From Hyphomicrobiales bacterium (GTDB lineage: Bacteria > Pseudomonadota > Alphaproteobacteria > Rhizobiales > NORP267): a DNA stretch of 64,000 nt. A program made the position numbers and the translations under genes. The notes under the pieces are model-generated. The model did not search any database, was not told the DNA's origin, and saw only the letters and a program-made list of their open reading frames with translations. This document shows positions 3,060 through 29,639 of this stretch, in pieces. The stretch spans positions 1-64,000 of the forward strand of contig JAJFGZ010000057.1 of the NCBI GenBank assembly GCA_021775855.1, in the 5' to 3' direction. The number at the start of each line of letters is the position of its first letter. Position 1 is the first letter of the stretch.

Positions 3060-3160
3060 TAGACAAAAGAGTTAGCCGGAACGCTAATCGGTTTCGTCCA
3101 GGCGAACCAGCAGAATGGCGGTAAAATCAGGTAAATTATTTTTGCGTTGACGCGCGCCCG

Positions 3161-6545: not shown

Positions 6546-7508
6546 ATGCTTGTGAATGGAAAATGGGCCGCCGATTGGCAACCTATTCAATCAAAAGACA
6601 AGATTGGCCGGTTTGTCCGGGAAACGTCCAGTTTCAGAAACTGGATCACCCCGACGGGAGAACCCGGCCCTGCCGGTGAAGGCGGGTTTAAAGCGGAGAC
6701 CGGGCGCTACCACCTTTATGTCGCGTTGATCTGCCCCTGGGCATCGCGCGCCCTCATGGTCCGCAAATTGAAGAAGCTCGAAGACGTGATCGATGTGACG
6801 GTGACCGAGCCGATCCTGACCGATCAAGGCTGGAAATTTGGAGACTATCCGGGATCCGGATACGACACCCTGCTCAACACCACCTACATGCATGAAATTT
6901 ATACCAAGGCCGACCCGGTTTTTTCCGGACGCGCATCGGTCCCGGTACTTTGGGACAAACAGCTGGAGACGATCGTCAACAACGAATCCGCAGATATCAT
7001 TCGCATGTTGAACTCGGCGTTTGACGCGTTCGGTGATACGTCCGTCGATCTTTATCCCCACCACTTGCGCGATGAAATCGATGATCTGAACGCAACTCTC
7101 TATGAACCACTAAACAACGGTGTCTACAAATCAGGCTTCGCCTCCACCCAGGACGCCTATGACGAAGCCGTTGCTGGCGTTTTCGAGACATTGGACAGCA
7201 TTGAAACACGGTTGTCCGACGGCCGAGACTATTTGTTGGCGAACCAGCTCACCGAAAGCGACATCCGCCTGTTCGTTACCCTCATACGGTTTGACGCGGC
7301 GTACCATGGAATTTTCAAATGCAACCTTAAACGGGTCATAGATTACGACGGGTTGCGCGAATATACCGGTCGAATATTAGCCATTCCCGGAATTGACGAG
7401 ACCGTGAACATTGATCACATCAAGACCGGCTACTATTCGGTCAAAGCGCTCAATCCATCGGGTATTGTTCCTGCCGGTCCAAGTCATTCTTTCGAAACTC
7501 GACCTTGA
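6546..7508 (+). CDS. yqjG: glutathionyl-hydroquinone reductase (Xi-class GST, YqjG/ECM4 family)
   Basis: Starting at the ATG preceded by a strong AAGGAG site, the protein has 320 residues. It carries the Xi-class active-site motif C63-P-W-A in LYVALICPWASRALMV, where the cysteine attacks glutathionylated (hydro)quinones and releases free glutathione. The residues usual for the family follow, including GRASVPVLWDKQ (thioredoxin-fold cis-proline region) and the C-terminal helical domain with LTESDIRLFVTLIRFD. It is cytoplasmic and dimeric in known members. It lies downstream of the secreted SnoaL-like gene on the same strand and probably in the same LysR-controlled unit, pointing to detoxification of quinones. 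The family is certain; the physiological substrate is not. Confidence 0.92.
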   Translation: MLVNGKWAADWQPIQSKDKIGRFVRETSSFRNWITPTGEPGPAGEGGFKAETGRYHLYVALICPWASRALMVRKLKKLEDVIDVTVTEPILTDQGWKFGDYPGSGYDTLLNTTYMHEIYTKADPVFSGRASVPVLWDKQLETIVNNESADIIRMLNSAFDAFGDTSVDLYPHHLRDEIDDLNATLYEPLNNGVYKSGFASTQDAYDEAVAGVFETLDSIETRLSDGRDYLLANQLTESDIRLFVTLIRFDAAYHGIFKCNLKRVIDYDGLREYTGRILAIPGIDETVNIDHIKTGYYSVKALNPSGIVPAGPSHSFETRP

Positions 7509-7583
7509 CGACATAAGACCGGAAAAGTCGAAAAATTCTCCCACAAACCTGTTCTCTCCAGGTGGCGGTCTACCAGTGTGATT

Positions 7584-7671
7584 TGGTGCGGACGGCGGGA
7601 CTCGAACCCGCACGGAGCTCAGCTCCTCAAGATTTTAAGTCTTGTGTGTCTACCAGTTCCACCACGTCCGC
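7584..7671 (-). tRNA. tRNA-Leu (anticodon UAA)
   Basis: On the minus strand an 88-base tRNA can be folded. The acceptor stem is GCGGACG paired with CGTCCGC, followed by discriminator A and an encoded CCA. The D-arm contains TGGTAGAC. The anticodon stem CAAGA/TCTTG encloses the loop CTTAAAA with anticodon TAA. A long class II variable arm (GGAGCTGAGCTCC region) follows, then the T-arm GCGGG-TTCGAGT-CCCGC. The long variable arm and UAA anticodon identify it as the leucine tRNA reading UUA codons. It lies between the reductase at 6546 (convergent) and gpt. Confidence 0.97.
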
Positions 7672-7811
7672 CAATGCGACAGAGGTTTGTCACAAGTTCA
7701 AGTCAAAGACCAGTCTAGACCGTTTCTGTTCCCGTAGAAGTAGTTGGTCGCGACTGCGACCGGTCAGGCACGCACAAGGTGCGGAATAACTGCGAGCCAT
7801 ATCAAGCCAGT

Positions 7812-8321
7812 TCAATCGCCCGACCCGCGCAACGGCGGGGCGAATTGCAGCTCCATATCCCAGGGGAAAAATATCCAGGTATCTTGCGATACTTCGGTTA
7901 CGAACGTATCGACCCGCGGAACCCCCATGGGCTTGGCGTAGACGGTGGCGAAATGTGCTTTTGGCAGCATGCCGCGCACGAGCTTGGCGGTCTTCCCGGT
8001 GTCAACCAGGTCGTCGACGATAAGAATCCCCTCGCCGTCCCCGCTGCCCACATTGGCGACATCTTCGCTGATGGTCTTCAATACATCGAGTTCACCCTGC
8101 GACTGGTGATCGTAGGACGCGATGCAGACCGTCTCGATCAGCCGGATTTCAAGCTCGCGCGCCACGATCGCTGCGGGTACAAGTCCGCCTCGGGTAATCG
8201 TGACAATCGCTTTGAAGTCGCCCTCTTTGCGGTCGGACAACCGCCACGCGAGCGCTCGGGCGTCGCGGTGAAACTGGTCCCACGAAACGGGAAAACTTTT
8301 TGGGCTTGCTTCGTCGGTCAT
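7812..8321 (-). CDS. gpt: xanthine-guanine phosphoribosyltransferase
   Basis: The protein has 169 residues, a little longer than the enterobacterial Gpt. The PRPP-binding loop [14 protein letters not shown] (residues 99-112) is intact. The first flexible-loop region ([16 protein letters not shown]) and the purine-side segment [11 protein letters not shown] near the C-terminus match Gpt rather than hypoxanthine phosphoribosyltransferase. It salvages xanthine and guanine to XMP and GMP. Its ATG overlaps the stop of the upstream CinA-like gene (ATGA), so the two are translationally coupled. The protein is cytoplasmic or loosely membrane-associated. Confidence 0.95.
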
Positions 8322-10056: not shown

Positions 10057-10890
10057 ATGACCTACATTACTGCTAACGACGCACCGGACCGCAATACCGG
10101 TCTGATCAAGCTCCACGGAGAGGACGCGTTTGCCGCCATGCGACGTGCCGGCCAGTTGGCCGCGCAGGCGCTCGACATGCTGGCGGGCGAAGTCCGCCCC
10201 GGCGTGCCGACCAAACGGTTGGACGATCTGGCATTCGAATTCGCGCGCGATCACAATGCAATTCCGGCAACCCTGTTTTATCGTGGCTTCCGCTATTCGA
10301 CCTGCACCTCGATCAACCACGTCGTATGCCACGGCATGCCCAACACCAAACCGATGCGAGAAGGTGATATTCTCAATATCGACGTCACGCTTGTTGTTGA
10401 CGGGTGGCACGGTGATACCAGCCGCATGTACCCCGTTGGCGAAATCACACGCCGCGCTGATCGCCTCCTCAAGGTCACCCACGAATCCATGATGCGCGGC
10501 ATCGCGGCCATTGTTCCAGGCGCAACCACCGGCGATATCGGGGCTGCCATCCAGGAATATGCTGAGCGGGAACGCACCAGCGTTGTCCGGGATTTTTGCG
10601 GCCACGGCCTCGGGCGGTTATTCCACGACGTCCCCAACATCCTGCATTACGGCCGCAGGGGCGAAGGTGTGTTGCTGAAACCGGGGATGCTGTTCACGGT
10701 CGAACCGATGATCAATCTGGGCCGGCCCCACGTCAAAATCCTCTCCGACGGATGGACCGCAGTCACCCGCGACCGCTCGCTATCTGCCCAGTTCGAGCAC
10801 ACGGTCGGCGTTACCAAGGAAGGCGTTGAAATATTCACGCTGTCGCCAGCGGGCCTGCACCAGCCACCCTACGGCGCTCTGGATGCGTGA
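10057..10890 (+). CDS. map: methionine aminopeptidase, type I
   Basis: The protein has 277 residues. All metal ligands of type I enzymes are present: D109 (ILNIDVTL), D120 (WHGDTSRMY), H183 ([10 protein letters not shown]), E216 (FTVEPMIN) and E247 (QFEHTVGV). The substrate-side histidine is at H92 in HVVCHGMP. The enzyme removes N-terminal methionine from nascent proteins in the cytoplasm. There is a 12-residue shift relative to E. coli Map from a short N-terminal extension. Its end overlaps the start of radC by eight bases, so the two are probably one transcription unit. Confidence 0.97.
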
Positions 10891-25770: not shown

Positions 25771-25844
25771 ATTGACTGCACACAGATTGGCGTACAGCCC
25801 GACATGTGGCAGACATATTTTATCGATTCAACGAGGGAGAAACG

Positions 25845-26090
25845 ATGTCCGATTCAAAGCCGGTAGCGGCCCAAAAAACCCCATACAAAGTCGAACTGAA
25901 AGAAGGCAAGAAATACGCCTGGTGTGCCTGCGGTCTCAGCCAGAACCAGCCTTTTTGTGACGGCAGCCATAAAACCACCGATCTCGTTCCCTCATTGTTT
26001 ACGGCCGAGAATTCCGGTGACCACTGGTTGTGCGGCTGCAAAGGTACGGCTAACCGACCGTTTTGCGACGGAAGCCATAAAAACTTATAA
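25845..26090 (+). CDS. double CDGSH iron-sulfur domain protein
   Basis: The protein has 81 residues from the ATG preceded by GAGGGAGAAACG. It carries two CDGSH [2Fe-2S] motifs in tandem: C27, C29, C38 and H42 (CACGLSQNQPFCDGSH), then C63, C65, C74 and H78 (CGCKGTANRPFCDGSH). Each three-cysteine/one-histidine set binds one 2Fe-2S cluster, so the protein is predicted to carry two. Bacterial two-CDGSH proteins of this size are common and are linked to redox or iron balance, with no settled role. It has no membrane anchor. The phosphoesterase gene at 26106 follows 15 bases later and is likely co-transcribed. Confidence 0.93.
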   Translation: MSDSKPVAAQKTPYKVELKEGKKYAWCACGLSQNQPFCDGSHKTTDLVPSLFTAENSGDHWLCGCKGTANRPFCDGSHKNL

Positions 26091-26105: not shown

Positions 26106-27896
26106 GTGCCACGCCCCTCAAACACCAACGAATTCCGCGGTCGTCGCATGGTGCGCTGGTACGCGCCACTAGCGCTTGTCGGGATCGGCCTGCGCGCGGC
26201 GGCGGCCCAGGTGGTTGGTGGTCTCGCCGACAATCGCGAATCCCAGGAACCTGGCGACCCCATCAACGGGAACAAGAATTCCGGCATCTACGATTACCGT
26301 ACGGGTCAAAGAGGTAAAGATTTCTGGTTCGATTTCGCCGCCGATATCGGTGACGGGTTCGAACCTGCTCATGCGGTCGCACGATGCCTCGCGCAGGACG
26401 AAATTCAGACGGACGACGAAGCCCTCCCCCGTGGCAAATTGCTGGTCATCGGCGGCGACCTGGTTTACCCGAACCCGTCGAAACAGAATTACGAAGACCG
26501 GTTTGTAACGCCTCTCACAGAAGCGTCGAAGATATCAGATGACGGCGTTCAACCTGAGAAACCGTTCGCCGACCTCTACGCCATCCCGGGCAACCACGAC
26601 TGGTACGACGGGTTGCAGGCCTTTATGGACCTGATCAGCGCCGCGCGATTTGACCGGGCCAGGGAAAAAGACAAATTGGGCCGTGCAATTGGCGGCTGGC
26701 AGACCCGGCAAAGGCGGAGCTACTTCACATTGCGACTTCCGGGCGACTGGTGGGTCATCGGCGCCGACGATCAATTCGGCAACTATCTCGATCGGGCGCA
26801 GACCGAATATTTTGGCCTCATGGCGGATCGTCACCTGATTTCCGGACAGAAAATTGTCCTGTGCACAGCCACCCCGAGCTGGGTCCTGTCCAACCATCAC
26901 GGCAAGCCGGCATTGATGGAGAATTTGCGGACCCTGCACAACATCCTGACCAGGAACGGCGCCAAAGTCAGCCTGCTGATATCGGGGGATCAGCATCATT
27001 ATCTTCGCTACGAAAGTCGCGACAAAACGGCCAACCCCGTTTTAATCACGGCCGGTGGCGGTGGCGCTTTCCTGCACCCGACTCACCCAACGCCGGAGAC
27101 ACTGGATCTTGATATTGATGGCGACGGCCGGCCCGGCTTCTATCGCCGTGTCACCACTTACCCTTCGACTGGGCAATCCCGCCGGCTCTCGTTCCGCAAT
27201 CTTCTCCTGCCTTTCTACAACCTTGATTTCGCGGCGGCAGTCGGGCTCCTCTACGCCTTCCTTGCCTGGTTCCTGCAGACCCGCAGCCTCAACGCGGACA
27301 TTGGCCTCTCGGATTCGTTCCTCGCCCTGCTCGATCACGGCGGCACGTTTAACGCCGTCAAAGAAATATTGGTCAAATTCATTCGAACGCTATTTGTATC
27401 ACCGGAATTTTTTGCTGTTTTCGCCGCCGTTTGGGGTGCCCTGGCAAGCTTTGCGCAGGGACTGGTGGCGGTAAAGATTTTTGCCGGCCTCTGCCACACA
27501 GTCGCCCACGTTGTCGGTCTGCTCCTGGCTTTCTGTTTTGCTGTACAACTGGCAAGAACCAGCGTTGTTGCCCTCGGGATTGATCCAACTCAGGGCTATT
27601 GGCTGATCACCTTCGCCTCGGTTTTCATGGTCACCATCGGCGGCCTGATCGGCGGGACTATCTTCGGCGCCTATTTGTTCACCGCCGTCAATCTGCTCCA
27701 CCACCAATGGACGAATTCATTCTCGTCGTTGCGGATCCGCGACCACAAGAATTTTCTCCGGATGAAAATCAACAAGAAAGGTCAGTTGTTCGTCTACGCG
27801 ATGAAAATCGCGCGGGTCCCCCGGATATTCCGCAAACCCCGCCCCTGGCCTGAACCGGAATGTGACCTGATTGAAAAAATTGGCCCCTTAACCTGA
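26106..27896 (+). CDS. metallophosphoesterase with C-terminal membrane domain
   Basis: This 596-residue protein starts at a GTG; an ATG at codon 15 is an alternative. Calcineurin-type metal motifs are in order: GGDLVYP (116-122), PGNHDWYDG (161-169), and the C-terminal SGDQHHYLRY (293-302). About residues 370-390, 433-455, 460-485 and 498-528 are hydrophobic and look like four membrane helices. The catalytic part is thus anchored to the inner membrane, with a charged tail (RMKINKKGQ) beyond. The substrate is unknown. It ends in TGA, and the frame then continues, without any usual start codon, into the GMC oxidoreductase. The CDGSH gene is 15 bases upstream. Confidence 0.85.
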   Translation: MPRPSNTNEFRGRRMVRWYAPLALVGIGLRAAAAQVVGGLADNRESQEPGDPINGNKNSGIYDYRTGQRGKDFWFDFAADIGDGFEPAHAVARCLAQDEIQTDDEALPRGKLLVIGGDLVYPNPSKQNYEDRFVTPLTEASKISDDGVQPEKPFADLYAIPGNHDWYDGLQAFMDLISAARFDRAREKDKLGRAIGGWQTRQRRSYFTLRLPGDWWVIGADDQFGNYLDRAQTEYFGLMADRHLISGQKIVLCTATPSWVLSNHHGKPALMENLRTLHNILTRNGAKVSLLISGDQHHYLRYESRDKTANPVLITAGGGGAFLHPTHPTPETLDLDIDGDGRPGFYRRVTTYPSTGQSRRLSFRNLLLPFYNLDFAAAVGLLYAFLAWFLQTRSLNADIGLSDSFLALLDHGGTFNAVKEILVKFIRTLFVSPEFFAVFAAVWGALASFAQGLVAVKIFAGLCHTVAHVVGLLLAFCFAVQLARTSVVALGIDPTQGYWLITFASVFMVTIGGLIGGTIFGAYLFTAVNLLHHQWTNSFSSLRIRDHKNFLRMKINKKGQLFVYAMKIARVPRIFRKPRPWPEPECDLIEKIGPLT

Positions 27897-27899
27897 GCA

Positions 27900-29639
27900 A
27901 TATGGATCAAGACCCTGGAACGCCTTTCCAAAGACCGGATCACCGCCGCACCCGCCTACGACGCCATTATTGTCGGATCAGGTTACGGGGCTGGCGCTGC
28001 CGCCTCCAGATTGTCGCGCATGGGGTTGCACGTCGCTATTCTCGAGCGCGGCCACGAAATCCTTCCGGGCGAATTCCCAAGGACCCTTGGCGACGGGATC
28101 GGAGCATTTCAGGCAGATTTGGGCTTTACCAAACTCGGCAGCGATACCGCCCTGTTCGATCTTCATACCAACGCTGGGATCAGCGTTCTGGTCGGCTGCG
28201 GTGTTGGCGGCACGTCGCTCATTAACGGCAACGTAATGCTGCACCCTGACGCGCGCGTCTTTGATAGCGACGCCTGGCCCAGCATACTGCGCGACGATCG
28301 CAGCGCCGGTTTACAAGAAGGTTACACCCGCGCCAGGGCCATGCTCACCCCTGCGATCTATCCTGAAAAAATCAAACTGGCAAAGCTGGAGGCCTTCCGA
28401 AAATCCGGCAAGGCGCTGGGCACCGAAGTTGTTTTGCCTCCGATCAATGTGACGTTCGAAGACCGCACCGAAGGCAACATCGCAGGCATGGTGCAACCGG
28501 CCTGTACGCTCTGCGGGGATTGTTGTTCGGGCTGCAACGTTGGTTCCAAAAACACCATTGCCATGAACTATCTGCCGGACGCAATCGACCACGGTGCAGA
28601 CCTTTTTACCGGTAAGCAGGTCCGGCATATTTCACGGGACGGCGACAAATGGATCTTACATTTCCGCAATCTCGATGGCGACGACGACACCCAGCAAACA
28701 TTGTCAGCCGGGATCGTTGTGCTGGGTGCCGGTACGCTCGGCAGCACCGAAATTCTGTTACGTTCGCTAGAAAATGGGCTCAATCTTTCGCAACAACTGG
28801 GCATGGGTTTTTCCGGCAACGGCGACGTGATTTCGTTCGGCTATAATTGCGACGATCAGGTCGACGCCGTTGGCGTTGGACACCCGCCCGTGATTGACAA
28901 GGCGCCTGTCGGACCGGTCATCGCAGGCTTGATTGACCTGCGCGACACCGACATCCTGGATGAAGGCATGGTTATTCAGGAAGGCGCCATACCAAGTGTC
29001 CTGGCGCCGGCCTTGCCGGAACTGATGGCCGGTACCGGCGCCCTGTTCGGCACCGGCACAGAGAACGGTATCGGCGAATTTTATAAAAAAAATGTGCGCC
29101 AGCTTAAGAGTATGGCGTTCGGTGCCTATAGCGGCGCTGTAAACGCCACCATGACCTTCCTGGTGATGGCCCACGACGGCAGCGACGGGCGCATGAGGCT
29201 GGAAGACGACAGCATCCGAATCGACTGGGACGACGCCGGCAAACGCCCCGTCTTTCAAAGGATCAGCGAGACCCTGGAAAAAGCCACCGCGGCCCTTGGC
29301 GGCACCCACGTTGATAACCCGGCCTGGTCTAAACTCCTGGGGAGAAATCTGATATCGGTGCACCCACTCGGCGGCTGCACCATGGGCGATAGTGCGGATA
29401 ATGGCGTCGTTGATCATAAATGCCGGGTATTTACCGGCGACGGCGATACGGTCCACGAAGGATTGTTCGTATGCGACGGGTCGATCCTGCCACGCTCATT
29501 GGGTGTTAACCCCGCACTGACAATCACCGCCGTAACCGAGCGCGCCATGATGCTGTTCGCCGACGATACCGGTCGTACACTGGATGTTGGATTGAGCCGA
29601 AAGCGACGGATGAGAAACGCCGCGCCGGATAAATCATAA
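27900..29639 (+). CDS. GMC-family FAD oxidoreductase (cholesterol-oxidase-like), start codon unclear
   Basis: The FAD-binding motif AIIVGSGYGAGAAASRLS must belong to the protein but lies upstream of the first in-frame ATG (28011); only CTG (27915) or rarer codons are available after the preceding gene's TGA at 27894-27896. The start given is the non-standard ATA at 27900, used only to include the fold. Other GMC blocks are VLVGCGVGGTSLINGNVM, VLGAGTLGSTEILLRS and HPLGGCTMGD with a C-terminal SLGVNPALTITAVTERA. A cysteine cluster, CTLCGDCCSGCNVGSKNT, is also present. It should oxidise an alcohol such as a sterol. It is in the same frame as the phosphoesterase. Confidence 0.82.
   Translation: MWIKTLERLSKDRITAAPAYDAIIVGSGYGAGAAASRLSRMGLHVAILERGHEILPGEFPRTLGDGIGAFQADLGFTKLGSDTALFDLHTNAGISVLVGCGVGGTSLINGNVMLHPDARVFDSDAWPSILRDDRSAGLQEGYTRARAMLTPAIYPEKIKLAKLEAFRKSGKALGTEVVLPPINVTFEDRTEGNIAGMVQPACTLCGDCCSGCNVGSKNTIAMNYLPDAIDHGADLFTGKQVRHISRDGDKWILHFRNLDGDDDTQQTLSAGIVVLGAGTLGSTEILLRSLENGLNLSQQLGMGFSGNGDVISFGYNCDDQVDAVGVGHPPVIDKAPVGPVIAGLIDLRDTDILDEGMVIQEGAIPSVLAPALPELMAGTGALFGTGTENGIGEFYKKNVRQLKSMAFGAYSGAVNATMTFLVMAHDGSDGRMRLEDDSIRIDWDDAGKRPVFQRISETLEKATAALGGTHVDNPAWSKLLGRNLISVHPLGGCTMGDSADNGVVDHKCRVFTGDGDTVHEGLFVCDGSILPRSLGVNPALTITAVTERAMMLFADDTGRTLDVGLSRKRRMRNAAPDKS

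Follow-up and report, generated by a model that had tools for sequence, protein, structure and literature searches.

The phosphoesterase (PE) and GMC oxidoreductase (GMC) genes that share a reading frame in the 64,000-nucleotide stretch of DNA analysed here (the window) are two ordinary separate genes, in which the start of GMC is either a one-letter oddity or a one-letter sequence error. Homology makes it moderately probable that GMC starts at CTG 27915 as the result of a TTG-to-CTG start-codon change within a two-gene unit. The junction does not represent a novel expression mechanism.

The junction in the window

The window comes from a draft alphaproteobacterial assembly of 88 contigs that is 94% complete. 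PE (26106..27896, forward strand) matched PF00149 (E 1.4e-7) with 32.6 bits against a gathering score of 21.5, which identifies it as a calcineurin-like metallophosphoesterase, and its C-terminal region is hydrophobic. The start candidates of PE are GTG 26106 and ATG 26148; the ATG, which the congener shares, forms codon 19 within the open frame. Upstream of PE, a gene for a CDGSH-type iron-sulfur protein (25806..26090, forward strand) was recognised by direct reading of two WCxCGxSxxxPFCDGSH-like motifs.

The PE frame ends ...IEKIGPLT at TGA 27894..27896 (forward strand), and the PE frames of both congeners also end with TGA at the aligned place. As the original prediction had stated, the frame continues past this TGA into GMC without another stop, translating as AIWIKTLERLSKDRITAAPAYDAIIVGSGYGAGAAASRL... 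up to the stop at 29637-29639; the residues directly past the TGA are AIWIK TLERLSKDRITAAPAYDAIIVGSGYGAG. It was also correct that no ATG, GTG or TTG lies in frame between the TGA and the FAD motif, and that the first such codon, TTG 28011, is located downstream of GxGxxG. The GMC open frame thus has no canonical in-frame start upstream of the CTG, and the rare candidates from the TGA to the YDAIIVGSG motif are solely ATA 27900, ATC 27906, CTG 27915 and ATC 27939. ATG 27902 lies in a different frame from GMC, as had been noted, and opens an ORF of 107 codons (27902..28225, forward strand) that is absent in the congeners and is probably not a gene.

Counted from the CTG, GMC comprises 574 codons (27915..29639, forward strand) and matched PF05199 (E 1.8e-15) and PF00732 (E 1.3e-11). 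Both GMC_oxred_N and GMC_oxred_C scored above the gathering score, and the FAD motif reads GSGYGAG, as is expected of a GMC oxidoreductase. Given the stop-free gap of 18 nt, the shared frame of PE and GMC is by itself a one-in-three event; the unusual feature of the junction is the missing start only. Orthologues on the matching congener contig were identified for 57 genes of the window, and GMC was the only one of these found without a canonical codon at the homologous start. Other start-less stretches (e.g. at 10736, 14283, 33816, 41410 and 58199) have a canonical start shared with the congener further downstream and are mostly overlaps with the upstream gene in another frame. Each of the 57 genes could be aligned to one uninterrupted open frame on the congener contig, with no broken frame noticed among the 57 pairs; therefore, the assembly is not error-rich in the window.

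The homologous start in relatives

Orthologues were present in two congener genomes, G001 (L032/L003) and G002 (L033/L004), where L032 is JAJFHA010000008.1 and L033 is JAESRU010000151.1; a scan of genome contigs found no further congener. The pairs resemble that of the window in their proteins, which are 73-77% identical to the window for GMC and 74-75% for PE, and the gene order hydrolase, AraC, PE, GMC, TetR is common to L032 and the window. They differ in that the congener GMC starts with TTG and in the distance from the PE stop to the GMC start, and PE and GMC are two genes in both congeners. In L032, PE ends ...CCCCTAAAC TGA and is followed by 30 nt with an in-frame TAA, then TTG AAA AAT CTC TCA AAA AAC. 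In L033, ...GTGAAC TGA is followed by 43 nt and then TTG AAA AAC CTC TCG AAA AAC, and the GMC frame differs from that of PE. In the window, where the two genes share a frame, ...TTAACC TGA is followed by 18 nt and then CTG GAA CGC CTT TCC AAA GAC. The CDGSH gene of the window, located between the AraC gene and PE, is absent there in L032, where PE starts at 3150, too close to the end of the AraC gene at 3119 to leave room for it. L032 also has a 235-aa cupin-like gene (7320-8027) adjoining the TetR gene, for which the window has no counterpart at the equivalent place.

The original prediction had proposed that the junction be compared in related genomes, where an ATG, GTG or TTG at the equivalent place would speak against it; both congeners have TTG there. 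A MAFFT alignment placed the CTG (27915..27917, forward strand) on the congener TTG without a gap, and the Shine-Dalgarno-like triplet GGA (27904..27906, forward strand), 8 nt upstream of the CTG, on the GGA located 8 nt before the TTG in both congeners. The CTG is 14 codons before the YD of the FAD motif, and the same start-to-YD spacing was found in L032, L033, L005, L006, L007, L012 and L013. In L070, L071 and L042, an ATG opens the tblastn alignment precisely at the CTG-encoded residue, so that ten relatives in total have their start at the -14 position; some others start 15-22 codons before YD, which indicates that the -14 spacing is common, not absolute. Of the possible GMC starts, the CTG had the best anti-Shine-Dalgarno pairing, about -3.1 kcal/mol (-3.2 in the congeners), compared with -1.9 kcal/mol at ATC 27906 and at ATG 27902. 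These energies are weak and serve as supporting evidence only.

The GMC frame is intact across the 574 codons from the CTG. Between the window and the congeners, dN was 0.165-0.172 and dS was about 2.2 or saturated, giving dN/dS of about 0.08 or less. Since dN is low relative to dS, GMC is under purifying selection, a measure that describes the lineage as a whole and to which a very recent silencing would be invisible.

According to the reading that we favour, PE and GMC would be carried in one transcription unit, translation of PE would end at TGA 27894, and ribosomes would initiate GMC 18 nt downstream at CTG 27915, with formyl-methionine as the first residue (M-E-R-L-S-K-D...). GGA 27904 may aid this initiation, and re-initiation by ribosomes that finish PE probably helps, which is plausible because of the 18-nt distance between stop and start. 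The CTG would have been derived from a TTG start through one transition, probably with lowered expression. CUG is a real but rare start in bacteria, accounting for 0.024% of starts, and its efficiency in a reporter was 0.86% of that of AUG (PMC11497404). An initiator tRNA was sought for variants tolerating CUG, and the patterns used gave no match in the draft genome.

Alternative readings of the junction

The original prediction had offered four options for the missing start. The rare start is supported at the CTG by homology, read-through and a conserved frameshift are contradicted by the congeners, and a sequence error remains. The last may take two forms. In the first, which we regard as unlikely, a single-base substitution error in the assembly would conceal a fully ordinary gene whose true codon at 27915 is TTG (or ATG). 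The TTG at the equivalent of 27915 in both congeners, the 88-contig draft source and the rarity of CUG starts are in favour of it; given that rarity, a single-base consensus error in such a draft has a prior comparable to that of a CUG start. On the other hand, the remaining window genes show no signs of errors in comparison with the congener, and substitutions in an assembled consensus are rare.

In the second form, rather unlikely in our estimation, one base has been inserted in CCC 27913-27915, either by assembly error or by recent mutation. With two Cs at this place, ATG 27902 is connected to the GMC frame and reads MDQDLERLSKDRI... (beginning MDQDLERLSKD). This ATG is ideally placed, 5 nt past the PE stop, which is a usual coupling distance, and the relatives L009 and L018 have ATG 18-19 codons before YD. 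However, ATG 27902 and the four extra residues are absent in both congeners, the remaining 56 orthologue pairs showed no frameshift, and an insertion would turn the exact -14 match of the CTG and the conserved GGA spacing into coincidences.

It is improbable that initiation occurs instead at ATC 27906, adding three residues, or at ATA 27900, adding five. ATC 27906 is in frame and has GAG 8 nt upstream, but it is off the homologous start position and its anti-Shine-Dalgarno pairing is weaker than that at the CTG. If the CTG is the start, the out-of-frame ATG 27902, located 13 nt upstream of it, would compete for ribosomes. It is very doubtful that this arrangement is a selected device, in which the ATG would act as a decoy diverting most of the terminating ribosomes, so that few start at CUG and the level of GMC is fixed at a small fraction of that of PE. 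Loss of GMC, silenced by the CTG change or an indel, is also a remote prospect; CUG yields about 1% of AUG expression (PMC11497404), whereas the 574-codon frame carries no other damage and its dN is low relative to dS.

Read-through of TGA 27894 to give a fused membrane phosphoesterase-oxidase has next to no probability. The shared frame, the stop-free 18-nt gap and a distant relative, G052, with a single open frame spanning both domains are consistent with it. A fusion of this kind would be expected to retain a single in-frame stop, whereas L032 has two stops in the GMC frame, the second being TAA, and the frames of PE and GMC differ in L033. Congener PE ends homologously at TGA, and in the other tandem pairs read at the junction (L034, L005/L040 and L070-L072) the GMC frame contains a stop, after which GMC has a start of its own. 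Because of the two in-frame stops in L032 and the different frames in L033, neither read-through nor a programmed frameshift is conserved. A programmed frameshift from ATG 27902 as a conserved mechanism is further contradicted by these tandem pairs and by the congeners, neither of which has such an ATG, and in L032 and L033 the aligned alternative frame hits a stop before the FAD motif.

The gene pair in relatives and in comparison with known systems

PE-GMC is a recurrent alphaproteobacterial gene pair whose functions are predicted from sequence. In a first sample of 61 genomes, a strong GMC match was found in 10 of the 11 genomes with PE, compared with 7 of the 50 that lack it. The Fisher p value was 2e-6, and it was 8e-5 when the window's genus was left out; both values ignore kinship. 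PE was present in 23 of the 397 genomes sampled in the order. The two genes are adjacent in tandem in G042, G082, G145, G359 and L034 and head to head in G007 and G029. A literature search found no papers on a GMC/metallophosphoesterase operon. A membrane-associated lipid or a sterol-like compound as the substrate is no more than a guess based on the protein families.

In G052 (L008; C346:1098-5255, reverse strand), a single 1432-codon open frame contains phosphoesterase and GMC, which are connected by about 130 codons of low-complexity linker. From its sequence, this frame is possibly a natural fusion of the pair; an internal TTG is present. Open frames of 1062-1181 codons in other relatives also resembled PE-GMC fusions. 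Those of L006 and L007 proved to be GMC with a C-terminal alpha/beta-hydrolase-like extension, and the GMC start is preserved in both. GMC of the window's subfamily is often one polypeptide with such a domain (L006, L007 and the plasmid matches H1-H4). Plasmid records label these proteins alpha/beta fold hydrolase, by which the oxidoreductase part is hidden.

Gene callers limited to ATG, GTG and TTG would place the start of the window's GMC at TTG 28011, with loss of the FAD-binding motif, or would drop or fuse the gene. GMC adds one homology-supported candidate to the CUG starts, and the recurrent pair with the phosphoesterase is a modest functional lead.

The window protein has GMC fold domains and the FAD motif in common with the cholesterol-oxidase-like GMC oxidoreductases (NF058674), but it scored 147 bits against a cut-off of 850, so that an assignment as cholesterol oxidase failed. 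It also lacks the extra C-terminal alpha/beta hydrolase domain of its relatives on some plasmids and in G029 and G036. Like the rare CUG starts described in bacteria (PMC11497404), the CTG of the window is located at the homologous start, one base from the TTG of its relatives and downstream of a Shine-Dalgarno-like triplet; unlike them, its use as a start is inferred from draft-assembly DNA.
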